From positions 1 to 42,026 of IMG/VR virus record IMGVR_UViG_3300021403_000026: DNA of 42,026 nucleotides. One strand, 5' to 3'. This DNA comes from a virus. The first letter of the stretch is position 1; each line of letters starts with the position of its first letter. Positions 18,302 to 41,992 of the stretch are shown here, piece after piece. The notes beneath the pieces were generated by a model. That model ran no database searches. It was given only the letters and a program-made list of their open reading frames with translations, and was not told where the DNA came from. Both the position numbers and the translations under genes were made by a program.

Positions 18302-19169
18302 AATCATGAAAAACAAACTGAACTACCTCAAAGCCGCACTCGTCGTTCTCGCCCTGCTGTGCGTTCCGGCTCTTTCGCAAGCGCAGCAAAACTTACTCGT
18401 TCAAACTACGCTTTCCGTCGCGCAAGCGGCTCCGGCAACACCAGGCGCTGCGCCCGTACCTTACGGCACGGTACAAATTGCGTCCTCGACGGGAATCGTG
18501 GGTTATTCGCTCAACCCAACACAAACGATCAATGCTCAGCAGTTGTGGGTTCTGTATATTGACCGCGAAGAAGAGGCTGTCATTACGGTCCAGGGCGCTG
18601 TGCTGAGCGTCATTCGCGGTTACAACTCAACCGTTGCGACCTCGCACGTTGCTGGAACGATGGTTCTATACGGCAAAGCGGCATGGTTCTATAACTACGA
18701 TCCAGGCGCGATTCTTGAACAAGGTGGCACTTCTGCCGTTTCTGGCGGCACAGCTTGTGTCTTAGCAACTGTGTTCGCGCATCCTTGGGTTAATGTACGA
18801 ACTGGCGAACAGTTTATTTGTTCGACGGATACGTTGTCTTGGGTGCCTGGATTCAACCAAGGTTTCGGCGCTGGTGGCAACAACGTACCTACGGCTGGGA
18901 CGGAAGCCTCAGTTGCAGGTACAAACGCGGTGCTTGGCCCTGTGTTTGCCATCTCAGGTACAAATGCAATCGTGACGTTCACGCCTCCGGTTGGTTTTAA
19001 TACAACGGCTGCTGGCGGTGGATGCTTCACGGTTATTCCGAAAGGCATTTTTACATGGACAGCGGCGGGGAACATTTCGGTTGCTGGTACCACAACGGCT
19101 ATAACGCAGAACGTAACATTCTGTTGGAATCCGTACACTTCGAAGTGGGTTCCTAGCCGCGTATCGTAA
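18294..19169 (+). CDS. Secreted or surface late protein next to the coat gene
   Basis: The 291-residue product starts with a clear signal peptide (basic MHKIMKNKLNYLK, then hydrophobic AALVVLALLCVPA, cleavage LSQA-QQ). The mature part is Thr-, Ala- and Gly-rich beta protein (GTVQIASSTGIVGYSL, IVTFTPPVGFNTTA), with SYNSTVATSHVAGT-like motifs as in phage adhesin or decoration domains. AAGGATACTCT precedes the GTG at 18294, favouring it over the ATG at 18306. Its place directly after the coat gene is that of decoration proteins, but a signal peptide is unexpected for those. Function unknown. Confidence 0.75.
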   Translation: MHKIMKNKLNYLKAALVVLALLCVPALSQAQQNLLVQTTLSVAQAAPATPGAAPVPYGTVQIASSTGIVGYSLNPTQTINAQQLWVLYIDREEEAVITVQGAVLSVIRGYNSTVATSHVAGTMVLYGKAAWFYNYDPGAILEQGGTSAVSGGTACVLATVFAHPWVNVRTGEQFICSTDTLSWVPGFNQGFGAGGNNVPTAGTEASVAGTNAVLGPVFAISGTNAIVTFTPPVGFNTTAAGGGCFTVIPKGIFTWTAAGNISVAGTTTAITQNVTFCWNPYTSKWVPSRVS

Positions 19170-19712: not shown

Positions 19713-20546
19713 ATGCCCATACTTCCGCCAACGCCGCCAAATCCTCCGCCGCAACCACCAACGCCTACGACGTTTCGTGTGATTTGCACGAACGCGCTGT
19801 GGGAAATTAACGTCGTAGCGCCCGGTGAGGTGCCGGATTACTCTGAGTTGGCGTTTGCGCTGGATAAAGCCAATCAGATTGCTGATAGCTGGTCGGCGCA
19901 AAAAGTTTATATTTACGCTTCGCAGCTTATTTCCGCAGCCCCCGGCCCTCCGGTTGGTAATAGTGCCGCGTTTCTGCTTAATCCTGGCTTAGTCAATCAT
20001 ACGGTTGGTCCTTCCTGGGGCGGCGCGCCTACGTTTCCTGTCATTACCGAGCGTCCGGTAAGAATTAAGAACGTGAACGTCATTCTTAACAACGTGACAC
20101 CAGTTGTGCGGTACCCACTTAAAAAGCGTGACTCTGATTGGTGGGCAACGAATCGTGTGCAGACGATTGCGACTTCGCTGCCAACGGATTTTTATTATCG
20201 CGTAGATTGGCCTCTTGGTTCGTTATTCTTTTGGCCTGTTCCTAATTTCGCTTGGGCATGCGAGCTGGAGATTGAAAGCGTCATTCAGGGCGGTACGACA
20301 CTCGATACTGAGTTTATTGGGCCTCCAGGCTACGAGCTGGCGATGACGTTGACGCTTGCCGAATTGTTGTGCAATGCGTTTGAGAAGCAACCGCCTCCTG
20401 TACTCGTGAATTCAGGAAGAATGGCGCGCAACGTGGTCATTGGCTTAAATACAGCGCCTCCGCGAATTAGCTTAGATGATTTTGGAGATGCTTCTACCGG
20501 GAAGCCGCGCGCGACTTGGAATTATAGAACGGGGATGAGTCGATGA
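19713..20546 (+). CDS. Head-tail adaptor, P22 gp4-like
   Basis: The 277-residue product opens with a Pro-rich stretch (PPTPPNPPPQPPTPTTF), then a helical pair typical of podovirus adaptors (SELAFALDKANQIADSWSAQ). It has the mid-motif ITERPVRIKNVNVILNN, DFYYRVDWPLGSLFFWPVPN and the final ELAMTLTLAELLCNAF. Such proteins bind the portal ring and form the first tail layer. The extra N-terminal Pro-rich segment is unusual. The ATG follows the preceding stop directly, and its own stop overlaps the next gene as ATGA. Confidence 0.82.
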   Translation: MPILPPTPPNPPPQPPTPTTFRVICTNALWEINVVAPGEVPDYSELAFALDKANQIADSWSAQKVYIYASQLISAAPGPPVGNSAAFLLNPGLVNHTVGPSWGGAPTFPVITERPVRIKNVNVILNNVTPVVRYPLKKRDSDWWATNRVQTIATSLPTDFYYRVDWPLGSLFFWPVPNFAWACELEIESVIQGGTTLDTEFIGPPGYELAMTLTLAELLCNAFEKQPPPVLVNSGRMARNVVIGLNTAPPRISLDDFGDASTGKPRATWNYRTGMSR

Positions 20547-22081
20547 AAAAATTTTTATTATCCTTAATCCTTATATTTTTATCGTTAAATGAATTACAAG
20601 CACAGCAGACAAGCGCACTTTTAACGAATTTTGAAACTTACAGCATTTTTGTTGCAAGCGCTAGTTGCGGAGTTACGGCTTCTTGTGTATGGATGAAGTT
20701 GGCGACCGGAACGACTACGGCTGTTGTAACTTTATCAGGAACTTTTGCTGGGACTTTCATTGTCGAACAATCTGGAGACGGCGGCGTAACGTTTTCAACA
20801 GTTGCAACTTACACCTCAGTTCAAACAGCGCAATCTTTTACTGTAACCGGCATGACAGATTTTCGCGTGCGGTGTTCTGCATATACGAGCGGCGTAGCAG
20901 TAATTACGATTAGTTCAAGTCCTACGGGAACATTTATTGCCGGATCGTTTAATCCTGCTGCGCCGGGTCCTATTGGCATCACGACGCCATCTTCTGGAGC
21001 ATTTACTACGGTTTCTGCTACTGGGGCTATCACTTCGACATTCGACGGCGTTCACGCTGGCTATGAATCGTTTGTAGGCAACACCGCGAATCAGACAGTA
21101 ACTGCAAATACAGTTGGATTTATGGGACCGACATCGGCAACATTCACTGCGTACGCGCTTCAATTACCAAGTACGGGGCCGACAACCGCAGCCCCTCTTT
21201 TAAGTTGCGTTACACCCGTTGGTTCCGTTTCAGCTTGTTCCTTTGTAGCGGCAACTGGAGGTTCAACTTTTCCAGTAACTGTTAGCGGAGCAGTGAACTC
21301 TGGAGGCATCCCCTGTTTTAATTCCACTACTAATGAGCAGACCTCTGTAGCGTTGACGGCGAATGTGATTGTCAAGGGCGGAGGTGCCGGTGCATGTCCG
21401 ACAAATTCTCTCGCTACGGATGATGGTACTCAGATTATTTATACGGGCACTGGTGGAATCGAATCCCCGATATTTGAAAGTACTGGTTCCACTGCTGGAT
21501 TTATCGATTTTCCTCAAGGAACTACAAGCTCGGCAATTGATCCTTGTAACGTGGCAACAAGCATTTGTGAACAGGCTCCTACAGCCGTGACATCCTACCT
21601 TGTCGTTAAACCTGGAGTTGCAGCAAGTGGAGTTCTTACGAACAGCGTGGCAGCGGCTGTAGACACTCAAGGTTTTAGCGGAGATGCTGGACATTCAACA
21701 ACAGTTTCTTGGTCTACAGCAACATCGCTTGGTTCTACGTCTTTGTGTTCAACTGCGCTTTGTCCGGCTGGAACATATCGCATCAGTGCTTATATTGACG
21801 TAACGACGGCCTGCACGACAACTGGAAGCTATCTCATCAACATCATCTACACTGATGATACAACAGTATCCAAGACCACGCTTATTCCTCTTGAAGGAAC
21901 CGGCAGCACGTTTGCTACTGGCGTTCTGGTTCCTGTATCCACAACCGATTACGGTCAAGCTACTTTCATACTGCGCTCAACTGGTGCAGCGTCCATTAAT
22001 TATTCAACCACGGCAGCAGCTTGTGGCTCCGGTGGTCCCGGTGTCGGAAAATTGTATCTCACGGTGGAGCCGATACAATGA
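20543..22081 (+). CDS. Large beta-rich protein with Sec signal peptide, likely fibre or adhesin
   Basis: The 512-residue product begins with a typical signal peptide (MKKFLLSLILIFLSLNELQA, cleavage before QQTS). The mature protein is very rich in Thr, Ser, Gly and Ala with short strands. It includes GITTPSSGAFTTVSATGAIT, a phrase common in phage tail-fibre repeats. Several Cys pairs could form disulfides, consistent with export. It lies between the gp4-like and gp10-like genes, where one expects virion parts. It is either a fibre that keeps a signal peptide or a secreted decoy or adhesin. GC-rich gcgcgc runs common in head genes are rare here. Confidence 0.75.
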   Translation: MKKFLLSLILIFLSLNELQAQQTSALLTNFETYSIFVASASCGVTASCVWMKLATGTTTAVVTLSGTFAGTFIVEQSGDGGVTFSTVATYTSVQTAQSFTVTGMTDFRVRCSAYTSGVAVITISSSPTGTFIAGSFNPAAPGPIGITTPSSGAFTTVSATGAITSTFDGVHAGYESFVGNTANQTVTANTVGFMGPTSATFTAYALQLPSTGPTTAAPLLSCVTPVGSVSACSFVAATGGSTFPVTVSGAVNSGGIPCFNSTTNEQTSVALTANVIVKGGGAGACPTNSLATDDGTQIIYTGTGGIESPIFESTGSTAGFIDFPQGTTSSAIDPCNVATSICEQAPTAVTSYLVVKPGVAASGVLTNSVAAAVDTQGFSGDAGHSTTVSWSTATSLGSTSLCSTALCPAGTYRISAYIDVTTACTTTGSYLINIIYTDDTTVSKTTLIPLEGTGSTFATGVLVPVSTTDYGQATFILRSTGAASINYSTTAAACGSGGPGVGKLYLTVEPIQ

Positions 22082-22842
22082 GGAAAATCTTCTCACTATT
22101 AATTATGCTCTTAATTACGACCTCACTTCCCGCTCAGGGTATTGGCGGTAAGGCAGGCATTGGCGGTAACGCGGGTATTGGCGGGGGCGCTCCCGCTGCT
22201 CCACCTACCTTTGGTCAGGCTCCAACTCCATGTACCGGAGGCAGCGGTGGGGGGCCTACAGCGATTACTTGTGTAATCTCAGGAAGCGTAACGGCAGGCC
22301 AATTCATTGTCTACGAATCTGATATGGGCGCTAGTTCTGGCACTATGACCGTTAGCGACAATTGCGGAGGAACCTACATTACCGATGTTGGCCCAACCAT
22401 TGTGTCGTTCAATAACGTTCAAGCAGGGCACTCCACCGGATCATCGGGCAGTTGCACGGTCAGCGTCCTGTGCAGTCTCACGTTTACGCAATGCACAATA
22501 ACAATCGCTACGATGAGCGGAGCAAGTGCATTTGATGTTGGAGCGGCGTTGAATACCCAATCCTCGCCGGGAACGGGTGCAAACGCAGTTACAAGCAACG
22601 CAGTAACGACTAACTTTAGAGATTTATGTTTCGGCTACACAATTGAGGGTGCAGGAGCCGGAAGCGGAACTATCACCGCTGGAACAACAATTGCTTGGAC
22701 GTTGGGTGCCAGTAGCTCTGCGGCGTTCAATGCCGGTATTGAATATTTCACTCAAGCTGGGGCGGGAAGCATAACCGCGACATTTACAGACACAACGGCT
22801 GGCTCAACTAGATATACGACGGGTGTTTCATGTTTCCATTAA
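22078..22842 (+). CDS. Secreted Gly-rich protein, possible adhesin
   Basis: The 254-residue product starts MRKIFSLLIMLLITTSLPA, cleaved before QGIGGKAG. It continues with GIGG[K/N]AGIGG repeats and a beta-rich domain of Thr, Ser, Ala and Gly (VISGSVTAGQFIVYESDMGA). Four to six cysteines could pair. Its ATG overlaps the previous stop as ATGA. A longer frame from 22021 lacks a signal peptide and overlaps the upstream gene, so I rejected it. Likely part of the same exported or virion-surface set as its neighbours. Confidence 0.75.
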   Translation: MRKIFSLLIMLLITTSLPAQGIGGKAGIGGNAGIGGGAPAAPPTFGQAPTPCTGGSGGGPTAITCVISGSVTAGQFIVYESDMGASSGTMTVSDNCGGTYITDVGPTIVSFNNVQAGHSTGSSGSCTVSVLCSLTFTQCTITIATMSGASAFDVGAALNTQSSPGTGANAVTSNAVTTNFRDLCFGYTIEGAGAGSGTITAGTTIAWTLGASSSAAFNAGIEYFTQAGAGSITATFTDTTAGSTRYTTGVSCFH

Positions 22843-24275
22843 AGCGATTGACTATTCTCATTCTATTGATGGTATGCGTGACCATGCCTGTTGGCGCTAC
22901 TACCTATTTTCTCGCCAGTTCATCTAATTCTCCTGCTGGCAATGATGGCAATACGGGAACTGATGCAGCTCATCCTTGGCTTTCTCCGAACCACGCGCTT
23001 AACTGTGGTGATGTAATCCTTGCAGCGGCGAGCACGGCGTATAACGCTGGCAATTTCTTCACTGGCAGTTGGGGCACTGTAACTTGTGCTGCTGGAAATA
23101 ACGTTGCTTGGCTTAAATGCGCTGTCTTCGATACTTGTAAGATTACCGGAACATCTTTCGCCGGAATGTGGATCGATAAGAGTTATTGGGGCGTGCAAGG
23201 TTGGGAGATTACAACTCCGCAGACAGATCAATTTGGTCAATGTTTTCAAACTGAACCAAACTTCACGACGCCTGTTAACATTCATCATATCATTTTCGCC
23301 AACAACATTGCCAATGGCTGCGGTGGGGCTGGTATTGCTACCGCGCAAGGCAGTAATAACACCACAGGAGTCGATTACGTTGTATTGATAGGCAACATTG
23401 TTTACAACTCGTCTTCTTCCACAACTGGAGTTTGTGACAGTGCTATTAGCATTGCTGTGCCCATCAATACAGATACGGCTCCAGGAACTCACGACTATGT
23501 GGCAGGGAACTTCACTTGGGCTTCCTTTGATGGGAATCCTTGCAATGGTGGAGTGCCCACGGACGGCGAAGGCATCATTCTCGATACGATTAATTTCTTC
23601 AATTACACTGGTCAAATGGTGGTTCAAAACAACATCGTCTTTCTAAATGGCGGTCGTGGAATTGAAGTCTATTTGAATGCTGCCTTGGATTCTAGAATTT
23701 ATATAAAGTATAACACTCTCTATTCCAATGGAACGGACCCCAATCAGAACAGCAGTGTATGCGGAGACCTCCAGATATATACCGATAGTAAGATTGAGGA
23801 ATTGTTTAACTTGGTTCAAGAGGCTCAATCTACCGGATGCGGGTCAAATCTTCTCTACGCAATGTCCGTTGGCAATGGTGGTCCAACTGACCACGTTTAC
23901 AATAATTTTGCTTATGGAATCAGCGGGCAAAATACCCAAATCAGTACCAGTCCAGGATTCAGCTACGGGCCTGGAAATACATTGGGAACAAGTCCAGCTT
24001 ACTTCAATCCGGTAAATCCGGGCGCCCCATCCTGCGGATCATTTGTGAGCGTTCCTGCATGCATGGCTACGGTAATCTCTAATTTCACTCCGACAAACGC
24101 GACAGCGAAGCCATATGGCTACCAGCCAGTGAGCACTACTTCTATTTATGATCCATTTTATCCTGTATGGCTATGCACGGTAACCAATCTTCCGACTGGC
24201 CTAGTGACGCCAGGTTGCGTGACAGGAGATAGCCTTGCATCAGGAACGGCAATTAGCGGAAAGACGTTGAAATAA
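22830..24275 (+). CDS. Right-handed beta-helix protein with signal peptide, possible polysaccharide lyase/depolymerase
   Basis: The 481-residue product has a signal peptide (MFPLKRLTILILLMVCVTMPVGA, then TTYFLA). The start of the mature part (SPAGNDGNTGTDAAHPW) is like that of pectate-lyase-type beta-helix proteins, which are often annotated as right-handed parallel beta-helix. Repeated Asn-Asn ladders follow (HHIIFANNIANGCGG, VLIGNIVYNSSSS, VVQNNIVFLNGG, YIKYNTLYSNG), typical of stacked helix turns. Tailspikes with this fold cut capsule or exopolysaccharide. Catalytic residues cannot be assigned by eye. The gene overlaps the previous stop and ends just before a duplicated gene start (24279). 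Confidence 0.8.
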   Translation: MFPLKRLTILILLMVCVTMPVGATTYFLASSSNSPAGNDGNTGTDAAHPWLSPNHALNCGDVILAAASTAYNAGNFFTGSWGTVTCAAGNNVAWLKCAVFDTCKITGTSFAGMWIDKSYWGVQGWEITTPQTDQFGQCFQTEPNFTTPVNIHHIIFANNIANGCGGAGIATAQGSNNTTGVDYVVLIGNIVYNSSSSTTGVCDSAISIAVPINTDTAPGTHDYVAGNFTWASFDGNPCNGGVPTDGEGIILDTINFFNYTGQMVVQNNIVFLNGGRGIEVYLNAALDSRIYIKYNTLYSNGTDPNQNSSVCGDLQIYTDSKIEELFNLVQEAQSTGCGSNLLYAMSVGNGGPTDHVYNNFAYGISGQNTQISTSPGFSYGPGNTLGTSPAYFNPVNPGAPSCGSFVSVPACMATVISNFTPTNATAKPYGYQPVSTTSIYDPFYPVWLCTVTNLPTGLVTPGCVTGDSLASGTAISGKTLK

Positions 24276-26185: not shown

Positions 26186-26535
26186 AAGTTAAGCGCCTAG
26201 CGCCTGATGAATACGAGAAGCTGCGCAACGTCGAAGAGGGTTACGTCCCTGATCCTGCGCATAGCATCGTGATCGTTGCCGAGCTGGACGAAAAGATCGT
26301 AGGGCGCGCGATGCTGATCCGCCCGTTTCATGTAGAAGGCACATGGCTCGATCACTCGATTCGTAAAGGCACGGTCGGGATTCGCATGTTTCGCTTGCTT
26401 GAAGAAGAAGTGAAAAAGATCGGCATGACTAAAATATTCTCATATTCGCAGAGCGATGAAGTTTCTGGATACCTGGAACGTATGGGCTACAAAAAACAAG
26501 ATGTAACGATTTGGGTAAAGGATGTATGCCGTTAA
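26155..26535 (+). CDS. GNAT-like acetyltransferase fold protein
   Basis: The 126-residue product has strand order and spacing of a small GNAT domain: HSIVIVAELDEKIVGRAMLI, then VEGTWLDHSIRKGTVGIRMF, a helix (RLLEEEVKKIG), TKIFSYSQSDEVSGYLERMG and TIWVK. The acetyl-CoA loop (R/Q-x-x-G-x-G/A) is only partly recognisable, so it may be a non-catalytic member. I recall such proteins beside tail genes in P22-like podoviruses. The ATG overlaps the previous gene by 31 bases and has no clear ribosome site. Confidence 0.72.
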   Translation: METNTVNGVLKVKRLAPDEYEKLRNVEEGYVPDPAHSIVIVAELDEKIVGRAMLIRPFHVEGTWLDHSIRKGTVGIRMFRLLEEEVKKIGMTKIFSYSQSDEVSGYLERMGYKKQDVTIWVKDVCR

Positions 26536-27320
26536 TTGCGCTAGGCGTTGCCGGAGCGGTAGCGGGCGGCGTGGGTTCTGCCGTGGCTGGCAGCGAACAG
26601 GCCGGAGCTGCGAAATCTGCGGCGCAGCTTCAGGCTGATGAAGCAGCGCAGTCGCTTGCGTTTCAGAAGCAAGAATGGAATACGCAACAACAGAATTCAG
26701 CTCCATTCCTTAAGGCTGGAACGCAGGCCGAGGGCGAGCTTTCAGGTCTTACTTCAACTCCGGGACAAGGGCTACTCACGCCATGGACCGAGCAGTTTAA
26801 GGCTCCTACAGCGGCGGAAGCTGAAGCAACGCCTGGTTATCAGTTTATAAAAGAGCAAGGCAACGAAGCGCTACAGAATTCCGCTGCTGCGAGTGGCGGA
26901 TTGCTAACTGGCGGGACGGCCAAAGCTCTCGATCAGTTTAATACCGGACTTGCCGATACGACGTACGGGGAGACGTATTCGCGCGCTTTGCAGGAGTACC
27001 AGACGGCCTACAACACCTTCCAGAATAATCAGACGAATACTTTCAACCGGCTTGCTACGCAGGCTGGCGTGGGGCAAACAACAGCTTCGCAGCTTGGGCA
27101 ACAGGGCCAAGTTGCGGCGTCGAACGTAGCTGGAATAAATTCCACAGCAGGCGCGCAGATCGGACAAAACATTAATAACGCAGGCGCAGCTACAGCGAGC
27201 GGTTATTCTGGCGTGGCGAACGCGGTAACTAGCGGATTTGGTAATATTCAAGGCCTGCTTACGCTTCAAGATTTAATGAAGAATCAGAACAATCCTGGAG
27301 CAACGCAAAGCTATGGCTAG
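26526..27320 (+). CDS. Ejection protein (DNA-transfer type)
   Basis: The 264-residue product opens with a Gly-Ala-rich segment (PLIALGVAGAVAGGVGSAVAG), then AGAAKSAAQLQADEAAQ. It continues with TPGYQFIKEQGNEALQNSAA and a Gln-Asn-rich helix (NTFNRLATQAGVGQTTASQL). This is the usual plan of the small injected proteins of podoviruses (P22 gp7-like), which leave the head with the DNA. The ATG at 26526 follows AAAGG; a TTG at 26511 would extend it by five residues. Confidence 0.8.
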   Translation: MPLIALGVAGAVAGGVGSAVAGSEQAGAAKSAAQLQADEAAQSLAFQKQEWNTQQQNSAPFLKAGTQAEGELSGLTSTPGQGLLTPWTEQFKAPTAAEAEATPGYQFIKEQGNEALQNSAAASGGLLTGGTAKALDQFNTGLADTTYGETYSRALQEYQTAYNTFQNNQTNTFNRLATQAGVGQTTASQLGQQGQVAASNVAGINSTAGAQIGQNINNAGAATASGYSGVANAVTSGFGNIQGLLTLQDLMKNQNNPGATQSYG

Positions 27321-28886: not shown

Positions 28887-30707
28887 ATGGCTGATCTTAC
28901 AGTTGCGAGCAGCGCGCCTCTTCCCGATCTTTCCGTGAAGAGTAGCATGGCTTTACCTACGACACCTTCTATCAGTGCGCAGCCGGAAAAGCAGCCATCT
29001 AGCTATATTCAAGCGTTGGCATGGGATCAAATTCCTGGCGCGAAGTTAGCTTCTGACGCGATTGATAAGCTCCACGAATGGGCTAATTTCACGCAAGAAG
29101 GTAAAGATCAACACCCGGTTCAAGCCGCTGCCGGGCAATTTGCTGATCGCTTAAAGCAAATGCTTGTTGGTGGAAAAGGTGGCGGCTTAAATATGGAAAC
29201 TGGTTTTTTGAACAATCCTATTACAAGTTCGATTGTTGGTGCTCCAGAAGATGAAACTATTAACCTTGCTCGCGGAGCGATTAAAAAGGTGGGCAGTATA
29301 GCGACTGCGCCATTTGAAGCCGCTAAATCAACCGAAGCCGCTCGTGCCGTAACGCAAAAGCTCGCTCCTGAAACAGCTAATGCGTCCGTGGCAATGACTC
29401 GTGGTGCTGTTTCTACTGGTGGAGCGGCAACAAATGCAATAACAAACGCTGATGTATTGAATCATGCATCTCAGATGGGTGTAAAGCTTACTCCTGCGCA
29501 AGCGCTTGGTACGAACGCGGCTCGTAGCGAACAAACTTTAGGTGAAGAAGCTTTGCTAACAGGTAGTAAAATAAAGGAAGCAGTAGCTGCGCAACGTAGT
29601 AAACTTGAAGATGCGATAGGAGATTTTCAAGACAAGCTTGATCCGCAGCGCGTTGGTATGACTTCAGAATCTGCTGGAGAACACTTACAAAATTCGGCGG
29701 AAATTGCTCGTTCCGTAATGAAAGATAATGTTAACCAAGCCTATTCTGATGTAAAAGCGCAGCAAAGCGATCTTGCTGGAGATGTGACGGGACGCTTACA
29801 GGATTTAATCCATAACGAGCGGTATTTTAAACAGCCAAGTGCGGCGGTTGAACGCCCAGTCCTTCAAACAGAAGCTGCTGATAAAGCGCTAAATGATATC
29901 GAATCCAGTCTTTCGAATTCAGCAATGCAGGGGCGACAATCGATTCAATCTTTGCGTAATCTTAGAACTAATTTTCTGGAGAAAGCAAATCAATATGGTG
30001 CGAACGCTCTTTCTGATTCTGGTCAGCGCATTTACAAGCTTGCAGCTAGTCAGGTGGATAGTGCGATTATGGATGCGGCGCGAGGCACACCGTTCGAGGA
30101 AACTTTCCGAGCAGCAGGCGCTCAGAACGCAAAACTCCAAGAACTATATAACCAACCAGGCTCGCCCCTTTATCGTATCCTCAATACCGACGACCCAGCA
30201 AAAGTTACCGATGGAATCCTCAACAGAAGCTCAGTCCAAGAAATTGAAACGCTGAAAGGCGAGAATTTCGATCTCGGTCCTCTTGCTCGCCAGGCCGTTG
30301 AAGATATTAAAAGCGGAGGATATCGCGTAACGAAAGATGGTCTTGGTGGATATCCTGACACTTTCCTTCGTTCATTGCTTGGACCGGATGCTTCGAAAGA
30401 ATTATATATGAAAGCCGATATCGCTCGTAGGCTTTCTGAGAATTACAATCCATCAGGTTCTGGAAAGGTTTTGCTTGGTGCTTCACAAGTAAAGCCCTGG
30501 ATGGCAGTTGCGGCGCAGGCGGCGCGATCTCGCAGCATGCCTGCTGAAGCTGCAAGCTTTTTACCTAAAGTTACTTCTCCTATTACTGGCGGCGCTCTAG
30601 CAAGCCCTTCTGAAATGTTTAAAAGCGCGGCGCCGCTAGCTGACGATGCTGCTATATCTATTGCAAAAAATGCTGCTCGGTTTAGCGAAAAAAGAGATAA
30701 CAAATGA
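28887..30707 (+). CDS. Internal virion/ejection protein 3
   Basis: The 606-residue product begins with an Ala-Ser-Pro-rich segment. It has the repeated residue style of injected proteins (QALAWDQIPGAKLASDAIDK) and long helices with Gln-Asn (QSLRNLRTNFLEKANQYGAN). Near the C-terminus there is a probable membrane-interacting stretch (MAVAAQAARSRSMPAEAAS). Third in a row after two other ejection-type genes, it matches the P22 gp20/gp16 position. Starts two bases after the previous stop and overlaps the next ATG as ATGA. Confidence 0.75.
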   Translation: MADLTVASSAPLPDLSVKSSMALPTTPSISAQPEKQPSSYIQALAWDQIPGAKLASDAIDKLHEWANFTQEGKDQHPVQAAAGQFADRLKQMLVGGKGGGLNMETGFLNNPITSSIVGAPEDETINLARGAIKKVGSIATAPFEAAKSTEAARAVTQKLAPETANASVAMTRGAVSTGGAATNAITNADVLNHASQMGVKLTPAQALGTNAARSEQTLGEEALLTGSKIKEAVAAQRSKLEDAIGDFQDKLDPQRVGMTSESAGEHLQNSAEIARSVMKDNVNQAYSDVKAQQSDLAGDVTGRLQDLIHNERYFKQPSAAVERPVLQTEAADKALNDIESSLSNSAMQGRQSIQSLRNLRTNFLEKANQYGANALSDSGQRIYKLAASQVDSAIMDAARGTPFEETFRAAGAQNAKLQELYNQPGSPLYRILNTDDPAKVTDGILNRSSVQEIETLKGENFDLGPLARQAVEDIKSGGYRVTKDGLGGYPDTFLRSLLGPDASKELYMKADIARRLSENYNPSGSGKVLLGASQVKPWMAVAAQAARSRSMPAEAASFLPKVTSPITGGALASPSEMFKSAAPLADDAAISIAKNAARFSEKRDNK

Positions 30708-32149
30708 AGCGTTTATTCTTATTTCTGATCCTGCTTTGTGCCGCTCGCGCAAGCGCGCAAGTGCCTGTGACATTCAGCCCATATCAACGTCAGCAGTTCA
30801 GCGACAATAATGGCAACCCGCTGGCAGGCGGAAAGCTCTGCACGTACCAGGCGGGAACGAGCACGCCACTAGCAACCTACACAGATTATACGGGCTTGTT
30901 TCAAAATACAAATCCAATCATTTTAGACTCAGGCGGGTTTGCTAACGTATGGATCACTGCTAACGCTTATCGGTTTATTCTTCTTAGCGCTGGGACGGAC
31001 AACACTTGCTCGACTGGCGTACAGCAATGGGTTTTGGATTTTATCACACCGCCTTTAAGCGCGGGTGGCAATAATGTTTTTACCGGCAATAATACGTTTA
31101 GTGGCACAACAAATTTCTCCGGGCCTGTAAACTTAAACGCTGGTGGTTCGTTGAACGGTTCGTTTAGCGGCACGCCAAACTTTGTTGGCAACGTGATATT
31201 CAGCGGCAACCCACTTTTTACCGGCTCTCCGAATTTTACTACCGCTACCATCGTTTGGCCTACCGCTATTCAATCAAATCTTAACGTACCAACGCAATCC
31301 GTAGTGCTTCCTAACGAGACAATTACCGGGACTACCAGCTCCAGCCTTGCCAAGCTAACCGGATCGCCTTCCACGGTCATTATCACTTCGACTACTGATG
31401 TTGGTGGCGTGATCGGTATTTGTACATCTAATTGTTTTGCCGCTGGTAATGCGACGATTCAAACGAATGGCACTACGACATGTAACTTTGATGGAAATAC
31501 AGCAGCAGGAGATTACGTCCAGATAAGCACGATGACGAACGGAAAATGTCACGACGTTGGTGGTGGAGGATACCCATCATCTGGACAAGTTATCGGGCGC
31601 GTGTTATCGACGAATGTTGGAGCTGGGCAGTATTTAATGGAGTTGTTTCCTCCCGATATTCGCGCTCCATCGGTAAGTATTAATTATCCGAACGTGGTAT
31701 ATAGCACGCCCTCGGCCTCGACGAACGCGAATATCACGCCCGCAGCGGGAACGATGATTACCCCAGGGGTAACTGCGACATATCGTTTTAATTGGTATGT
31801 TTCTTTAACTGTCATTGGCACTTCATGCACAGGAAGCACCACCATTGGCGTACGTCTAACTTATCAAGACCCATCGGCGCCTGGAACTACGCCAGTAATC
31901 TTGAGCAATACAAACATTAATGATGGAACATCTACTCTTGCTGGTTTTACCTTAGCCCGATTGGGAAATGGTACTCTCGGGGTCGCTTATTCGCAAACGT
32001 CTGGATTTGGATATTTACCAAGTTTTGAATTCCGTGCGAAAGCAGGAACACCTATTCAATATGATGTTAGCTACGGGATTGGAGCGGCTTGCGCGCCTGG
32101 TCCGCAGTATCAATTATTTCCAATTTTGGAGCAAATGACATCAAACTAA
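30704..32149 (+). CDS. Tail fibre with podovirus-type N-terminal domain and a Sec signal peptide
   Basis: The 481-residue product starts with a signal peptide (MKRLFLFLILLCAARASA, then QVPVTF). What follows is the fibre head-binding pattern: SPYQRQQFSDNNGNPLAGGK, TYQAGTSTPLATYTD, NPIILDSGGFANVWI, as in many podovirus fibres. The middle repeats N-x-FSG/F-x-G units (VFTGNNTFSGTTNFSG), a thin beta-structured stalk. The C-terminus (TYRFNWYVSLTVIGT...) probably binds the receptor. A virion-bound fibre with a Sec signal is odd; cleavage after ASA would leave the head-binding domain at the mature N-terminus. Its stop region is overlapped by a lipoprotein gene. Confidence 0.85.
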   Translation: MKRLFLFLILLCAARASAQVPVTFSPYQRQQFSDNNGNPLAGGKLCTYQAGTSTPLATYTDYTGLFQNTNPIILDSGGFANVWITANAYRFILLSAGTDNTCSTGVQQWVLDFITPPLSAGGNNVFTGNNTFSGTTNFSGPVNLNAGGSLNGSFSGTPNFVGNVIFSGNPLFTGSPNFTTATIVWPTAIQSNLNVPTQSVVLPNETITGTTSSSLAKLTGSPSTVIITSTTDVGGVIGICTSNCFAAGNATIQTNGTTTCNFDGNTAAGDYVQISTMTNGKCHDVGGGGYPSSGQVIGRVLSTNVGAGQYLMELFPPDIRAPSVSINYPNVVYSTPSASTNANITPAAGTMITPGVTATYRFNWYVSLTVIGTSCTGSTTIGVRLTYQDPSAPGTTPVILSNTNINDGTSTLAGFTLARLGNGTLGVAYSQTSGFGYLPSFEFRAKAGTPIQYDVSYGIGAACAPGPQYQLFPILEQMTSN

Positions 32150-32283
32150 TACTTATTTTCGTATTGATTCTAGCTGGGTGCGCTGCTCGTCGTTCAGCAA
32201 TAGAGCAGCCATATTGTTCTTGGTATCCGCCGTTAAATCACGTGGCATGTTGTTACGACGATGGAAGGTGCTACCCACAATGA
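32089..32283 (+). CDS. Small lipoprotein (possible outer-membrane exclusion protein or spanin-like)
   Basis: The 64-residue frame has a hydrophobic segment ending in a lipobox (LILIFVLILAGC, then AARRS), so the Cys should be lipidated after signal peptidase II cleavage. The remaining 30 residues include five more cysteines (PYCSWYPP, VACCYDDGRCYPQ). The start is not certain: TTG at 32089 follows GGAG closely, overlapping the previous gene by 61 bases. Its stop overlaps the next ATG as ATGA, which supports reality. Phage lipoproteins may block superinfection or act as outer-membrane spanins; the Cys-rich end fits neither clearly. Confidence 0.5.
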   Translation: MRAWSAVSIISNFGANDIKLILIFVLILAGCAARRSAIEQPYCSWYPPLNHVACCYDDGRCYPQ

Positions 32284-35200
32284 AACTACGTTTTTTATTT
32301 CTTGTTCTGTTTTCTTTGTGCGCCACCGCGCTTCACGCGCAAGGTTTTTGGGTTCCTATTCAATATTTACAAGAGGGAACGATTGCAGGCGTAACGAACG
32401 CAGTTATCATTCCACCTTCCCCCGTTCTTGCCTTCTGCAACGCTCCTGCAAACGCAGTGCCATGTACGAACAAGGCAGCTACCTATACGGACTCAACGCT
32501 CGGAACGCTGTGCTCTACCAGCACGCAGTTTGTGTTAAACGGAACGAATGCATGCGTTGGATTCTTAAATCCCCAAAACCTGGGTGGAGTGTGGGTCGCT
32601 GCCGGTCAGTATGCTTACACGGTAAGCGTAGGTGGCGCGAACTTTGGTCCGTTCTTTATAACTGCTGGAGGATCTGGCGGTGGGGGTGGCGGTGGGCCAA
32701 CGCTGCAAACAAACGGCGTGCCTAATGCATCACAGTCTCTATTGAATCTTAAAAGTGGAACTGGAATAGTAATTACTTCTGATGGTGCTGGAGGAGTGAC
32801 GGTAAGTTCTTCCATTACTCCTACAGCGCCAGGGGGAGCTTCAAATTCTTTGCAATATAATTGCTCTGGATCGTTTTGCGGAACTCCTGGGATTGTTACG
32901 CCAGATGGTGGAAATAGCTTAGATATTAAAGGGCCAATTCCTTGGATTGATGCGACTCAGTACGGTATGAGGACATTTCCTAATCCTCCAAATATAATCA
33001 CCGTTTCTACTAGCGCCAGTAGCCCGACAGTTTCTACGACAGGAGTATCGGATTTTATCAAGAATGACGGGATCGTAATTCCTCAAGCTGGTCCTGCAAC
33101 AGCACAATCCACTCCAGCAGCGCCAACGCTACAGATGATCGGGGCAAGCGGCGCACAAACTGTTAATTATAGATGCGTGGCAGTAGACCGCCAGTGGGGA
33201 TTGACGGCGGCTAGTCCAGCTACAGCTATAACTAACGTTCCTACGGTTTTTGGGGCGCCGGCTGCCGTGATTTCTTCTATTGTACGTAGCGCGAACGTTG
33301 TAACGGTTACAACAGGTTCAGCAATGCCTTTCTCTTCTGGATCATTTCATGCTCGAATTGGCAATGTCACTGGCGGCACCACCCAATTTTCAGGCTTGCA
33401 AGTTGTTACAGTAATGAGTGGAACCACTTTAACTTACAGTCAAACTGGAGCCAATGAATCTGGTACGGTAGGCGCTACGTCATTTGTGCGCTTCGATAAT
33501 GCTTTCTTTGTGACTACTGCCCAGGCTACAACGGGATCGAATCAAGTTGTTCTTACAACAGATGTACCGCATAACATTCTTTGGAATAACAGCGGCCTTA
33601 ATCCTGACGAGGTGTTTACTGACGGCATTCAGTTTACTGCGGCCAATCCTCAAGGGTACGCTATTGGTCCATTCCCGGTTGGCGGTATTGGTGCGAGTAC
33701 AATAACAATTAACACTTCCTACACCTCACCGATAACAACGACGGGCGTGGCTAATTTCAATTACTCTACTTCTCAAAGTGGAGTAAACGTTATGACGGTT
33801 ACCGTTTTTCCAAAGGTGATTGTTACCTGTCCTGCAATCTCAGGGACTACTGTGTATTACGCCATTTACGCGGATTATGGCAGCGGTTCTGCTCCAATTG
33901 GATTTACGCCGTGGTTACATAATAAGTTTGAGGATTACGGCCCTGCATTTACAAAGTCTGGATTCACGCCGCCTCCTGCGATGAATCTTCCGGCTACCTT
34001 TCCAGTTGCAGCGCAAAATCAAGTATTTAGTGGACAGATCGCGTCTATTTTTGGTACAACGCTTACATTGACTGGAAATGTTCCTACCGCGGTTTCTGCC
34101 GTTACTGCTTATCACGATGATGGTGTTCCATTTCAAAATGCCATTGCAGCATCATGTAGTTCAATTGGAGGAAATACATTCGATAGTGTGTACTTGCCAC
34201 CGGGCATTGCATTTGGTTATTATTTCTTTCATGCTCCAGTAGATTTGTCAGCTACCTGCAATAGAACGAACATCCTTGATGGTGGAGCTATTTATGCTAA
34301 TGGAACCATCTATGATGATAGTGCTGGTGAATTAGTATGGCGTAGACCGCAGGACTTGTCTGGATTCAATAGCATCAGCACTGGCGCACCCAACAAAGGG
34401 CAGATATTGTTATTCGGATTGGCATCTCCTGAAATGGTGACTCCGCCGGCGGGGAGTTCTTCCATCGTCGGGATGCAATTCAATGTACTCTCCAATAGCC
34501 AGGTAGGATTACTGGTGCAAAATAACAATGTTCACCTGGAGGACAACACTTTTGAAACGGTAGGTGCTAACAATCTCAGCGCCATTCCGTTTGAAATGGG
34601 CGGCAATGTGGGATTTGAATTCAAAATGACTACCACTGCCTGGAGTGGTGATGTCAATACTCAATATCCAGTCACTGCTGGCGGCGATCCGCCTGTCGGA
34701 GATATCGCCTACTGGCCTGTTCCTGTATTTGATTTCTTTGGTCCCAATAGCATGGCTGACACTATCATTGTTGATGGCATTAATTATGGAAATTTACGTG
34801 GCTTTAGATTAAATAACATGTACGGTCTTGTGCAAAGCTCTCCAATGGTCATCATGTCGGATATACGAACCTATCAATCTCCTTATAATCCTTTATTAAA
34901 GATCGTTGGGAATTTCGGCTTACCAAGGGTTAGCATAACAAGGGCAATATCGGATAGCATTCAACAGCCGATCACTACATGTATACGATCAGACAATGGC
35001 TCCTGCGGAAACTTTTATAGTGACGATGTTGTCAGCAGCGATGGTAGCGCCAACTTTCCTGTGTTTACCGGCCCGCCGTGGGGTGTTGCTCTTCAATATT
35101 CATCTCCTGGATCTGGTTTAGCTCAAAACACAAATGAATGTACGTATCTTTTTTCTCCTTCAAGTTTCAATTGCACGTTGCCAATCATTGGAGCTACTTT

Positions 35201-35792
35201 TGCCGGAGGGACTTTTACTGGTACTTCTTTTTCTGCTGGCTCAATGCCACCAACAGCAGTTTGCGGCACAGCAACCGGAGCACTTTGTCTTGGAGAATCT
35301 TCCACTGGTTGCACTCCAACAGCGGGACAGGCTTGTATTCGAGCTGATTCGACTAGTAATGAGTTTCTTGCCACGATTAACGGGACTCCTGAAGCTCCTT
35401 TAGTTCAAACTACAGGAACTTCAGTTGATCTGACTGGACAGACAGCGGCTATTGGCGCGACAAATATCGTGGCCTCTGCTCCTCGTAACGCAATATATCG
35501 AATATGCTTCTCTTCTAATATCACGACGGCAGGCTCAGTTAGTTCTACGCTTGGCGGAACGAATGGCTTCCAGGTTATCTATACCTCGCCTACGGATTTA
35601 TCATCAAATACAACCGTCCCAAATGCTGCATGGTCATCGACGGCAAATACCACCGCTACGGCAGTTGGTGGTTGTGTCAGTGTGTATGCTCTAGCATCAA
35701 CTGCTATTCAGTACAGTTTTGGTTATACAGCAAATGCGGCTGCTTCGATGGCTTATGAAATTCACGTTCGAGCAGAGGATGGGTTGAACTGA
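32280..35792 (+). CDS. Very large secreted beta-rich protein, likely fibre/tailspike or adhesin
   Basis: The 1170-residue product starts MKLRFLFLVLFSLCATALHA, cleaved before QGFWVPI. A first domain ends in a Gly-rich linker (GGSGGGGGGGP), then tail-fibre-like repeats (SLLNLKSGTGIVITSDGAGG). Later parts (DGVPFQNAIAASCSSIGGNT, then VYLPPGIAFGYYF and an LVQNNNVHLEDNTFETV ladder) look like a pectate-lyase-type beta-helix tailspike. The C-terminal domain (SFGYTANAAASMAYEIHVRA) looks like a knob. It is the longest gene and, like its neighbours, has a Sec signal. A longer frame from 32178 has no start support; ATG at 32280 is coupled to the lipoprotein gene. Confidence 0.83.
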   Translation: MKLRFLFLVLFSLCATALHAQGFWVPIQYLQEGTIAGVTNAVIIPPSPVLAFCNAPANAVPCTNKAATYTDSTLGTLCSTSTQFVLNGTNACVGFLNPQNLGGVWVAAGQYAYTVSVGGANFGPFFITAGGSGGGGGGGPTLQTNGVPNASQSLLNLKSGTGIVITSDGAGGVTVSSSITPTAPGGASNSLQYNCSGSFCGTPGIVTPDGGNSLDIKGPIPWIDATQYGMRTFPNPPNIITVSTSASSPTVSTTGVSDFIKNDGIVIPQAGPATAQSTPAAPTLQMIGASGAQTVNYRCVAVDRQWGLTAASPATAITNVPTVFGAPAAVISSIVRSANVVTVTTGSAMPFSSGSFHARIGNVTGGTTQFSGLQVVTVMSGTTLTYSQTGANESGTVGATSFVRFDNAFFVTTAQATTGSNQVVLTTDVPHNILWNNSGLNPDEVFTDGIQFTAANPQGYAIGPFPVGGIGASTITINTSYTSPITTTGVANFNYSTSQSGVNVMTVTVFPKVIVTCPAISGTTVYYAIYADYGSGSAPIGFTPWLHNKFEDYGPAFTKSGFTPPPAMNLPATFPVAAQNQVFSGQIASIFGTTLTLTGNVPTAVSAVTAYHDDGVPFQNAIAASCSSIGGNTFDSVYLPPGIAFGYYFFHAPVDLSATCNRTNILDGGAIYANGTIYDDSAGELVWRRPQDLSGFNSISTGAPNKGQILLFGLASPEMVTPPAGSSSIVGMQFNVLSNSQVGLLVQNNNVHLEDNTFETVGANNLSAIPFEMGGNVGFEFKMTTTAWSGDVNTQYPVTAGGDPPVGDIAYWPVPVFDFFGPNSMADTIIVDGINYGNLRGFRLNNMYGLVQSSPMVIMSDIRTYQSPYNPLLKIVGNFGLPRVSITRAISDSIQQPITTCIRSDNGSCGNFYSDDVVSSDGSANFPVFTGPPWGVALQYSSPGSGLAQNTNECTYLFSPSSFNCTLPIIGATFAGGTFTGTSFSAGSMPPTAVCGTATGALCLGESSTGCTPTAGQACIRADSTSNEFLATINGTPEAPLVQTTGTSVDLTGQTAAIGATNIVASAPRNAIYRICFSSNITTAGSVSSTLGGTNGFQVIYTSPTDLSSNTTVPNAAWSSTANTTATAVGGCVSVYALASTAIQYSFGYTANAAASMAYEIHVRAEDGLN

Positions 35793-36928
35793 TGAAAATA
35801 AGAATAGTTGTATTTTTACTCTTGTTAGGAGCCTCGGCATCTCCGAGTAGGTCTGCTGGTGCCATCTGGAGCATAGGTTATTATACTCCTTGGAATAACA
35901 CAGCCAACGCAACATCTTCTAATCTATCTACATTGCAATGGTCCGCCCTTACTCACATGATCGTCGTTGCGGCTGGTCCGAACACGAATGGAACGTTAAA
36001 TTATTTCAATGCCGGGAACTTCGCATCGACCATCGCTTCGACCATCTCTACCGCTCACACGCATAACGTGAAAGTTCTTCTCGACATTACAAGCGCGAAC
36101 GGGAGCTTTACAAACGCTTTTGGCGCTCAAAATTCTTTGGCTACTTTAATCACCAACATCATGTCCGTCGTGAATTCAGATAGTTTCGATGGTGTGGATA
36201 TCGACTTCGAGGAGGGCTGGAATCAGACTTTGATGAATAATTTACTGTCTGGTTTACGAACCAGTCTTGGCTCTAAACTTCTTACGGCTTTTGCGAACGA
36301 TAGCCAATTTAATTGGTCTGGGCCTCCAACTCCCGTATGCGCAGCCGCTGGGAATGGATGGACTTCCACTCAAATTGGATATCTTGATCGGTTGAATCTA
36401 GGAGCCTACGATCTTGGAAACCCTGGTAATGGCGACCCTTATACGTGGTTTAATTATGCTTTGCATAGCGACACAAACCAATTTCTATGGTCTGCGGATT
36501 ATCTTAAAACTGCGGCTATTAACTGCGGCGTATCTGCGGCGAAATTGACGATAGGACTTCCTTTCTACGGGACTCTTTACACGGTCAATACAGCTCCCCG
36601 TCAGACGGTTGGTGGAGGTTCGACGGCTACTCAAGAGCCGTATAGTTATATTCTTACGAATTTCAGCTTTTCTAGTCCCACTTATGATATTACCGCTCAC
36701 GCTCCATGGAAAGTACAATCAGGAACTCGATACTTGGCTTGGGCAAATACGCAAGCTATAGACGATGCGATAAATTACATAAAAGCACAAAGCTTAGGTG
36801 GTATTTTCGTATATGCTTTAGGGTGGGATGGGTCTGATTGTTCGGTAAGCTGTCCTCTTCTATCGCAGATTGGCTTGGACCTTGCAGCTCCTGTAAATCC
36901 AGGTAATGGTGGAGCGATAATTCAGTAA
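35792..36928 (+). CDS. Secreted GH18 glycoside hydrolase (chitinase-like)
   Basis: The 378-residue enzyme has a signal peptide (MKIRIVVFLLLLGASASPSRSA) followed by GYYTPWN, the first strand of GH18 barrels. The catalytic motif DGVDIDFE lies at residues 133-140, with E140 as acid/base and D138 as partner. Later landmarks are LGAYDL (about 203-208; the usual M-x-Y-D) and GIFVYALGWDG (second-to-last strand with conserved Trp). GH18 enzymes cut beta-1,4-GlcNAc linkages in chitin or related glycans. Secreted GH18 in a phage is unusual. It could open cell envelope or biofilm polymers. The ATG overlaps the tailspike stop; the lysis cassette follows. Confidence 0.92.
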   Translation: MKIRIVVFLLLLGASASPSRSAGAIWSIGYYTPWNNTANATSSNLSTLQWSALTHMIVVAAGPNTNGTLNYFNAGNFASTIASTISTAHTHNVKVLLDITSANGSFTNAFGAQNSLATLITNIMSVVNSDSFDGVDIDFEEGWNQTLMNNLLSGLRTSLGSKLLTAFANDSQFNWSGPPTPVCAAAGNGWTSTQIGYLDRLNLGAYDLGNPGNGDPYTWFNYALHSDTNQFLWSADYLKTAAINCGVSAAKLTIGLPFYGTLYTVNTAPRQTVGGGSTATQEPYSYILTNFSFSSPTYDITAHAPWKVQSGTRYLAWANTQAIDDAINYIKAQSLGGIFVYALGWDGSDCSVSCPLLSQIGLDLAAPVNPGNGGAIIQ

Positions 36929-37650: not shown

Positions 37651-38181
37651 ATGAAGAAATTAGCTTTGCTTTTCGTTTTATTCGCAGCGCCGTGTTTTGC
37701 GCAGACGTCAGTTCCGAAGCCGTCGCTCTTTACCATGTCCGGCAATTACGCCGCTTTCACAGGTACGAAAACCACTACGCCCGTAGTGGTTGCTACTGCC
37801 GCCGTACAGGTAACAAATCACTTCTCTTTCGGGTACGAACATATTCAGGCTACTTCCGGCTCGCTCGACGCTCGCTGGGAGCTTGGTATTGGAGCTTATA
37901 CGCGCCAACTCAACGAGCTGCTCGGTGCGAATCTTTCTAGTAAAATCCTGTTCGACGTTTCTCAGATTGGCGTAACCTTCACAGCGGGAGGAGGAAAGCT
38001 CTTACAGCCTACAGTGAATCGTATTGCCGAGACTGCTGGCGTGCATTTCAGCTATCCGCTTGCCGATCATATTTCGATGCAGGTAATTGGAGTCGATATA
38101 CTTCATGGCGGTGTACAAACTGGCATATTGACTACGAACACTACGGCGAGCGTCTCGTCAGGAATTAATATCTATTTCTGA
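37651..38181 (+). CDS. Putative outer-membrane beta-barrel protein
   Basis: The 176-residue product has a signal peptide (MKKLALLFVLFAAPCFA, then QTS) and a mature part with many alternating hydrophobic strands (FSFGYEHIQATSG, ARWELGIGAYTRQ, SKILFDVSQIGVTFT, GVHFSYPLADHISMQVIG). It ends SSGINIYF. A C-terminal Phe after an amphipathic strand is the BAM recognition signal of outer-membrane proteins. The size fits an eight-strand barrel, like phage Lom/Ail proteins. It sits between membrane lysis proteins and the lysozyme-like gene, with the strong ribosome site AAAGGAGAAACA. It could exclude other phages or change host surface. Confidence 0.75.
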   Translation: MKKLALLFVLFAAPCFAQTSVPKPSLFTMSGNYAAFTGTKTTTPVVVATAAVQVTNHFSFGYEHIQATSGSLDARWELGIGAYTRQLNELLGANLSSKILFDVSQIGVTFTAGGGKLLQPTVNRIAETAGVHFSYPLADHISMQVIGVDILHGGVQTGILTTNTTASVSSGINIYF

Positions 38182-38189
38182 GGCGACTT

Positions 38190-38612
38190 ATGTCTGATTA
38201 TGACGCTTTACTTGTTGCGCTTGCAGCGAAGTTTGCGCATGCAGTTGCGCTCGCGGAGGGATTCTTCGTTCAAGGCTCCCTCCCCGAGCGCGTTCACAAT
38301 CCCGGCGATCTAGAGCTTGGCAATCGCGGGTGGGGAGTCGAGCAAGGCAAAACTATTTACTTTAAAGCTGATCTGGAATCTTCGCTTGATGATCGTGCCG
38401 ATGGTTGGGCTGCGCTTAAACGGGAATGCGTGGCAATTCTAACCGGAGGCTCGCGCGAATATTCGCCAAGCGACACGTTCGAAGAAGTATCGGTAAAATG
38501 GACTGGCGGCGACAACCCAGGCGCATGGTGTAAAATCGTCACCGATAACCTAGGCGTACAGCCGCTTGACCGCCTGGTGGATTGGGTTAAGGCAGCAGCC
38601 CAACAAGCCTAA
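38190..38612 (+). CDS. Endolysin-type protein (lysozyme/transglycosylase-like)
   Basis: The 140-residue product begins with a helix leading to AEGFFVQGSLPERVHNPGDL (about residues 22-41), a pattern of phage muramidase-like proteins, where the Glu is the likely catalytic acid (E23). Later GWAALKRECVAILTGGSREY and SVKWTGGDNPGAWCK match the usual helical remainder, and it ends LGVQPLDRLVDWV. It has no signal peptide, so it would need the holin to reach peptidoglycan. It closes the rightward operon; its stop overlaps that of a minus-strand gene by four bases. The reaction cannot be fixed by eye. Confidence 0.78.
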   Translation: MSDYDALLVALAAKFAHAVALAEGFFVQGSLPERVHNPGDLELGNRGWGVEQGKTIYFKADLESSLDDRADGWAALKRECVAILTGGSREYSPSDTFEEVSVKWTGGDNPGAWCKIVTDNLGVQPLDRLVDWVKAAAQQA

Positions 38613-40858: not shown

Positions 40859-41225
40859 CACCCTCTTCCTTGCGCCGGCTGCGCTTGCTTTTTTCTAAGA
40901 ATCTTTTACTCGCCAGCCTATTTGAGTTCCGGTAACACCGCTTACAGCGATGATCGTAAACGCGCGGCGCGTGCCAGTGTGTATCAGGCGGCGCTTGGCA
41001 CGCAGGACATTTAACATAGTTGTCTTCTACTGTCTCTAGCACCTCGCAACGCGCGCAGCCAGGGACCGCGCATCTAAAAATCCCTGGCCGCGTGCGTATC
41101 GGATCGTGCCGCGCTACCTCCGCCAAGCCTTGCCCGCGCCTTCGCAAGCCCCGCTTTGGCGCGGTAGCTAAAACGAACGTCATTGCGACGCCTACATGTA
41201 CAGGGCAGCGCGGCGCGGGGAGCAT
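40848..41225 (-). CDS. Zinc-ribbon early protein
   Basis: The 125-residue product starts at ATG 41225, which overlaps the upstream stop as TAATG. It has a Cys-rich middle (CAVPGCARCEVLE, then KCPACQAPPDTHWH) and DHRCKRCYRNSN, so two zinc sites are likely. A basic tail (FLEKSKRSRRKEE) follows. A longer frame from 41279 would overlap the ssDNA-binding-type gene. Nucleic-acid binding is a fair guess from the zinc and basic parts. Confidence 0.72.
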   Translation of the reverse strand: MLPAPRCPVHVGVAMTFVLATAPKRGLRRRGQGLAEVARHDPIRTRPGIFRCAVPGCARCEVLETVEDNYVKCPACQAPPDTHWHAPRVYDHRCKRCYRNSNRLASKRFLEKSKRSRRKEEGDAR

Positions 41226-41992
41226 TAGACCGCCACCGTTTCGCTTTCTGGCGCTGGCATGCGGCCTGCGGCGCGCCAAGAGTTAATCAGCTCGTAGGCC
41301 AAGAATCCTGCCTTAGCTTGTTCTTCGGTTACTAATCCATCGTTCTCAACCGATGGTTGATAAGAATCGCCCGAAGCGCGGTGATCTTCGACGACATTCA
41401 GCTTGTATACGCCAGCGAAGCGGTCGAGATTCTTAATGTTGACAAGCGTGTTCCAGTGCTTACCGGCTTTAATGGCGATTGATTTGAAGCTGACGATCAC
41501 GATTCCGGCCGGATCGACTTTTCCTTGCTTATCGATTACAAGGCACGGGAAGTTCATGAACATCATGCAGCTTGGCCGGGAATCTTCTTCGTCCGTGTTG
41601 AATTTCGAAAACTCGCACTGCGCGCATAGCCCGCCTGGATCTCCAATACCTTGCGTTCCGTTATCGGAACGGCACAGAATGCCTGCTCCGATTTCCTTGC
41701 CATTCCAGCGGATACGCGAGCGAAAGTAATGAACGTTCACGACGCGCAATGTTTCGCCGTAAATCTCTTTCGTCGCCGTATTGAAGAACTGCCCAGCCTC
41801 TAGGCCCGCGATGTACTTCGCATGCGATTTCTTCAACTCGAAGCTATTCGCTTGCGCAAGCGCTACGCGCGGAACGATGACATCTTCATTCGTGACGTTT
41901 TCGTTTCCTAACCGCGCCGCGCCTGGTTTTGATCTTAGGTACTCGGGCACTTCCTGAATTGCCATGCTTTCCTTTTTTTGTATTGCTTTCAT
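41225..41992 (-). CDS. Conserved phage early protein, candidate ssDNA-binding type
   Basis: The 255-residue product follows a pattern I know from many phage replication regions. It has a short basic start, VPEYLRSK, then NVTNEDVIVPRVALAQANSF and AGLEAGQFFNTATKEIYG, a beta strand with RVVNVHYFRSRIRWNG. A Cys set follows (GILCRSDNG, GGLCAQCEFSKF, PSCMMF) and then NFPCLVI. The Cys set could bind zinc. Neither the family name nor ssDNA binding can be proved here. Ribosome sites precede both the ATG at 41992 (GAGGAAAAC) and the Met at residue 10. It belongs to the same minus-strand operon that continues from position 1. Confidence 0.8.
   Translation of the reverse strand: MKAIQKKESMAIQEVPEYLRSKPGAARLGNENVTNEDVIVPRVALAQANSFELKKSHAKYIAGLEAGQFFNTATKEIYGETLRVVNVHYFRSRIRWNGKEIGAGILCRSDNGTQGIGDPGGLCAQCEFSKFNTDEEDSRPSCMMFMNFPCLVIDKQGKVDPAGIVIVSFKSIAIKAGKHWNTLVNIKNLDRFAGVYKLNVVEDHRASGDSYQPSVENDGLVTEEQAKAGFLAYELINSWRAAGRMPAPESETVAV

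Follow-up and report, generated by a model that had tools for sequence, protein, structure and literature searches.

Carrier phage and gene neighbourhood

Nucleotides 35792-36928 (+) of the 42 kb virus record analysed here over its whole length (further referred to as the window) form an ORF of 378 aa, with the same limits as in an earlier note on this DNA, whose product is a GH18 glycosidase. The window also encodes a P22-type portal and coat protein, Terminase_2/3, the head closure protein Hc3 and a DNA ejection protein, which together identify this soil-type virus of bacteria as a P22-like podovirus. The features relevant to the GH18 gene and to its neighbours are listed below; signal peptides were called by a home-made rule, used in a loose and a strict version, and not by SignalP.

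13650-15788, + strand: P22-like portal, which marks the contig as a podovirus
17063-18301, + strand: P22-like coat protein, likewise a podovirus mark
18294-19169, + strand: predicted signal-peptide protein directly behind the coat gene, conserved in >10 loci of related phages
20543-22081, + strand: predicted signal-peptide protein with 13 cysteines in the mature part; its N-terminal part is common to exported proteins of the related phage G001 (see below) and of other loci
22078-22842, + strand: signal-peptide protein by the home-made rule (MRKIFSLLIMLLITTSLPAQ), 8 cysteines
22830-24275, + strand: signal-peptide protein by the home-made rule, 14 cysteines
30704-32149, + strand: tail fibre or spike with a signal peptide, a podovirus virion-binding N-terminal domain (by sequence comparison) and a cysteine pair
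32178-35792, + strand: tailspike-like protein, likely start at 32280 (MKLRFLFLVLFSLCATALHAQ), with a signal peptide and the four-cysteine N-terminal domain 'PANAVPCTN'
35791-35795, + strand: TGATG, overlap of the tailspike stop and the GH18 start, with AGAGGA ~12 bases upstream
35792-36928, + strand: GH18 glycosidase, with a signal peptide (residues ~1-22), the GH18 domain (28-346), Y206-D207, the substitutions M204G and W341Y, and four cysteines
37651-38181, + strand: small signal-peptide protein of the putative lysis cassette that may be an outer-membrane protein (weak match to Porin_3, E 0.033)

Since the GH18 start codon shares bases with the stop of the preceding tailspike gene, the two genes are probably co-translated. 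The earlier note had placed the enzyme between the tailspike and a lysis cassette; the spike gene (32178-35792) does precede it and small hydrophobic ORFs follow from position 36939, but the second part of this placement stays putative, as lysis genes, including an endolysin, were recognised in the window by none of the libraries searched. The ORF at 38190-38612 is a candidate lysis-region protein that looks lysozyme-like by eye; it was matched by no library and, among the loci compared, has a relative (44%) in locus L258 only. No integrase was recognised among the window genes scanned, which comprised part of the ORFs, and the window exhibits neither Rfam elements nor an excess of promoters or terminators. 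At its ends, 41225-41992 and 150-698 (-) encode homologs of phage Pam3 gp34 and gp33, and 5903-6595 (-) encodes a small protein with a C-terminal run of AAYAAYAADAAYA repeats.

The closest phage found is G001 (IMGVR_UViG_3300049217_000020, 39 kb), with 68% identity in the best segment of the protein encoded by 28887-30707. G001 has no GH18 gene; when its ends are joined, two signal-peptide proteins come after the spike gene, one of which looks like a spike by eye, and these are followed by a GH24-type lysozyme (PF00959). As G001 carries other signal-peptide proteins where the window carries GH18, the spot between the spike and the lysis genes seems to hold varying exported cargo.

The GH18 domain and its catalytic pocket

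The earlier note had described the product as a GH18 enzyme with an intact catalytic motif and a signal peptide of its own, and both statements are borne out. Pfam family PF00704 matches residues 28-346 with E 1.6e-31 and 110.6 bits (curated cut-off 29.6) and is covered at profile positions 3-317 of 317, i.e. as a full-length family domain; the catalytic DxxDxDxE is present as DGVDIDFE at residues 133-140, together with the Tyr of the MxYD motif. By the home-made rule, the protein starts with a typical Sec signal peptide (MKIRIVVFLLLLGASASPSRSAGA), and with an even number of cysteines (four) in the mature part the protein looks like a Sec-exported, disulphide-bonded one. The AlphaFold2 model, built with 56 aligned sequences (pLDDT 87, pTM 0.89), exhibits the TIM-barrel fold of the family. 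Its matches in the PDB are GH18 chitinases and several chitinase-like lectins (e.g. 4uri, YKL-39), the best being the class V chitinase of tobacco (3alg, E 2.2e-23, TM 0.75). The 378 aa comprise the signal peptide and the GH18 domain only and include no virion-binding N-terminal domain, so the protein lacks the own attachment domain that characterizes a tailspike depolymerase.

In the alignment of 56 rows, D133, D136, D138, E140, Y206 and D207 are all kept. On the other hand, M204, a Met in 55/56 rows, is replaced by Gly in the window, and W341, a Trp in 48 of the 49 rows with a residue there, is replaced by Tyr. Both positions line the -1 subsite in GH18, and the protein thus possesses neither the -1 subsite Trp near the C-terminus nor the Met of MxYD that are found in canonical chitinases. 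Similarly to the class V-type chitinases of Nicotiana tabacum (3alg/3alf), it has a TIM barrel of the same topology, the DxxDxDxE motif and the catalytic Tyr-Asp; it differs from them in the two substitutions, in an overall identity of ~22%, in being phage-borne and in having no carbohydrate-binding module. M204G and W341Y suggest a changed substrate, the alternative being lost activity; with the -1 subsite altered, plain chitin is not an obvious substrate and the role of a canonical chitinase is unlikely, while GlcNAc polymers of the envelope or biofilm are a possible one. All in all, the product appears to be a real, rare GH18 that is probably active but altered.

Relatives of the GH18 protein

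The earlier note had called GH18 rare in tailed phages, and the searches agree with it: tblastn against 50,697 phage records gave no match at E<=1e-5 and a single fragment at E=3, and an alignment-based scan of IMG/VR with distant GH18s revealed 12 loci, all distant relatives of the window protein. A short-peptide scan for direct relatives found none in viral or genome contigs, so that relatives came only from the alignment with distant GH18s. The exact DGVDIDFE pattern has four matches in viral contigs, of which one (L034) lies in a GH18-like frame and the other three are due to chance. GH18 genes in Listeria and E. coli "phage" records were left out, as these are unannotated records of 2-15 kb and likely contamination, and those of L125 and L126 lie beyond an apparent integrase at the contig end and are probably host genes.

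In the tree of 109 GH18 domains, the window sequence forms a group of four with that of L121 (IMGVR_UViG_3300036886_000097) and two proteins of Patescibacteria (SH-aLRT 94); its branch is long and the placement of such a branch unsure. The two Patescibacteria hits (L041/L042) were considered as mis-binned phage, an idea that we abandoned because nothing phage-like was seen in their neighbourhoods. As to the question raised in the earlier note, namely whether the enzyme nests within a clade of host bacteria, it lies apart from the sampled Acidobacteriota GH18s and outside their chitinase clade; an origin from an Acidobacteriota host was rejected, as the GH18s sampled there are <=30% identical and located elsewhere in the tree.

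Two of the distant relatives resemble the window in their genomic context. L121 has a tail-region GH18 with a signal peptide, within a run of tail-region genes that also bear signal peptides, but unlike the window protein it possesses an extra N-terminal domain between the signal peptide and GH18, and its motif reads DGVDLNWE. Close to this gene, L121 9899-10366 carries what looks by eye like the motif of a PIG-L-like GlcNAc deacetylase (AHPDDEALWW), for which the family search gave only a weak match to phrog_11796. L123 (IMGVR_UViG_3300037200_000368) also has GH18 in a phage tail region, but as part of a protein of 952 aa with fn3 domains and the motif DGVDIDWE, encoded behind the baseplate genes. 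Related GH18 genes are present in L122 (7836-9785), a viral contig of 157 kb, and in L129 (7782-8978), a phage with a P22 portal; the L122 protein starts with a lipoprotein-like signal and may contain a beta-helix (weak match) after GH18.

Signal peptides across the tail proteins

Assembly of tailed phages is regarded as a wholly cytoplasmic process, for which tail proteins should not require a signal peptide. In the window, however, about seven predicted signal-peptide products are encoded in the structural region, starting at 18294, 20543, 22078, 22830, 30704, 32280 and 35792; the ejection protein (26511-27320) also scored under the loose rule, a false positive that disappeared under the strict one. 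With the strict rule, signal-peptide ORFs number 36/261 (the fibre genes themselves included) in the 19 loci whose fibre N-terminal domain has a signal peptide, and 0/346 in the 28 loci that have the same domain but no signal peptide on it. Other exported proteins in these loci vary in kind, with parts resembling GDSL esterases and GH43 (weak matches, below the cut-off), and such resemblances are frequent among tail spikes. As signal peptides are present on about seven structural-region proteins and on tail proteins of related phages, the one on GH18 says little about the enzyme alone: as far as can be read from the sequences, predicted signal peptides are a trait of this phage rather than of the GH18 enzyme.

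Cysteine pattern of the fibre and spike domains

The N-terminal domain of 30704-32149 is that of the tail spike of Xanthomonas phage PBR31 (49.5% identity, E 2e-18), and PBR31 ORF34 occupies the same place after the internal proteins. In the isolate podophage records examined, PBR31 among them, this domain starts at the start codon or close to it, and both a signal peptide and the cysteine pair are absent. In the window and related phages, on the other hand, it is preceded by a signal peptide and has two cysteines at fixed places (GGC.FTY ... TNCASG in most relatives, GGKLCTY ... NTCSTG in the window). Among 57 distinct fibre domains, the cysteine pair was found in 18 of the 21 with a signal peptide and in 0/36 without one. 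The tree reduces this association to one or two origins; the counts are thus not independent events, and a Fisher p-value is not a fair probability for them. The fibre domains of L208 and L240 have a different cysteine pair, and those of G254 and G294, two genomes assigned to Acidobacteriota, have a signal peptide without the pair.

The same tendency is not confined to the fibre domain and is observed for the exported proteins as a class: in 36 loci with a signal peptide on the fibre, the cysteine count is even in 54/60 exported proteins vs 146/282 other proteins, an excess that is expected if cysteines pair in an oxidising compartment. The N-terminal domain of the spike has a signal peptide in 24/24 viral loci, the window included, and always contains 4 or 6 cysteines; this 'PANAVPCTN' domain has no match in Pfam, PHROG or the phage collection. 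The window segment 32280-32620 and loci L246-L268 represent a new family of cysteine-rich domains ('AFCNAPANAVPCTN'), located N-terminally in exported spikes. L275 (15308-18679), in a bacterial chromosome of the Acidobacteriota genome G294, is a lone exported spike of 1,124 aa with the cysteine domain; no other obvious phage genes lie nearby, and the spike may be a phage remnant or have been domesticated.

A relative of the terminase with 51% identity is present in one Acidobacteriota genome; genomes of this phylum also contain the fibre and spike domains together with signal peptides, as apparent remnants. The phylum label rests on how these genomes were sampled, namely as the phylum to which an Aminicenantes genome belongs. 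Acidobacteriota are therefore a lead for the host and not a result, being the sole phylum searched in that way.

Function of the GH18 protein

In our opinion the best explanation, to which we assign a probability of about one half, is that this phage lineage sends its tail appendages into the periplasm and that GH18 is among the exported proteins, acting as a depolymerase that is either released at lysis or joined to virions. According to this reading, the retaining glycosidase would be produced in late infection by joint translation with the tailspike. The host Sec system would then carry it to the periplasm, its site of folding and of a possible pairing of its four cysteines, a route that it would share with a set of other tail-region proteins of the lineage. 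Its substrate would most likely be a GlcNAc-containing glycan of the host surface or matrix, and with a remodelled -1 subsite probably not plain chitin; it may act as a free enzyme once the cell has lysed or while bound to the virion. The GH18 fold in this scheme is a prediction, while the catalytic residues, signal peptides, tailspike overlap and the cysteine pattern of the appendages are read from the sequence.

The enzyme may instead be a Sec-exported endolysin, i.e. a peptidoglycan glucosaminidase of the phage that reaches the periplasm via its signal peptide and aids lysis. Its gene lies immediately in front of the putative lysis cassette with its small hydrophobic ORFs, the libraries recognised no other endolysin in the window, and phage lysins with a cleavable signal peptide do exist, as exemplified by Oenococcus phage fOg44 (cited in PMC4640515). 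However, the GH24-type lysozyme that follows the exported proteins of G001 indicates that lysis in this lineage uses a separate gene, the ORF at 38190-38612 occupies the place expected for an endolysin, the GH18 relatives of L121 and L123 are located in tail modules and the best structural matches are chitinases, which makes this role unlikely.

A secreted GH18 could also serve as an auxiliary metabolic gene that digests soil chitin or related polymers and thus feeds the infected cell. A phage-encoded chitinase-type gene of this kind has been described in Pseudomonas phage KT1, where it supports growth of the host on chitin (PMC11788074), and the fold of the window protein matches chitinases. 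The KT1 enzyme, however, is a GH19 protein of 177 aa from a prophage, with a demonstrated effect on host growth (PMC11788074), while in the window no integrase was recognised among the genes scanned, the GH18 gene overlaps the tailspike gene instead of being a separate cargo gene, and the -1 subsite Trp and Met are changed; we find this role harder still to credit. The least probable reading is that of a sugar-binding adhesin similar to chitinase-like proteins: M204G and W341Y, two changes at near-invariant pocket residues, could also mean a weak or lectin-like enzyme, and several structural matches are chitinase-like lectins (4uri, YKL-39), but such lectins have usually lost the catalytic acidic residue, and here DxxDxDxE and the catalytic Tyr-Asp are intact.

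Implications for tailed phages

A result more surprising than GH18 itself is a lineage of tailed phages whose tail appendages look like exported, disulphide-bonded proteins. The same export tag on a whole set of tail proteins suggests a group of viruses that ships tail parts out of the bacterial cytoplasm, which tailed viruses are, to our knowledge, not known to do. We regard it as an evenly balanced proposition that in a lineage of tailed phages, possibly infecting Acidobacteriota, the tail fibres, spikes and associated enzymes such as GH18 pass via Sec to the periplasm and acquire disulphides as they fold there, the virions being completed outside the cytoplasm at about the time of lysis or later. 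In the open-access literature we found no report of signal peptides or disulphides on the fibres or spikes of tailed phages, and hence no precedent for an exported fibre or spike. Export of lysins by phages is known (PMC4640515, PMC3765740), as is that of Lom-type outer-membrane proteins (PMC12309495), and according to one study phage DGR target proteins have no signal peptides, unlike bacterial ones, an absence that was taken to support phage origin (PMC6199706).

If the proposed export is true, a part of the virion would be made in the periplasm, disulphide-bonded spikes would be possible, and the phage would need the Sec and Dsb systems of its host. Besides, a signal peptide on an enzyme of such a phage, be it the GH18 protein of the window or the GDSL- and GH43-like proteins of its relatives, would alone be no evidence for a secreted metabolic gene.
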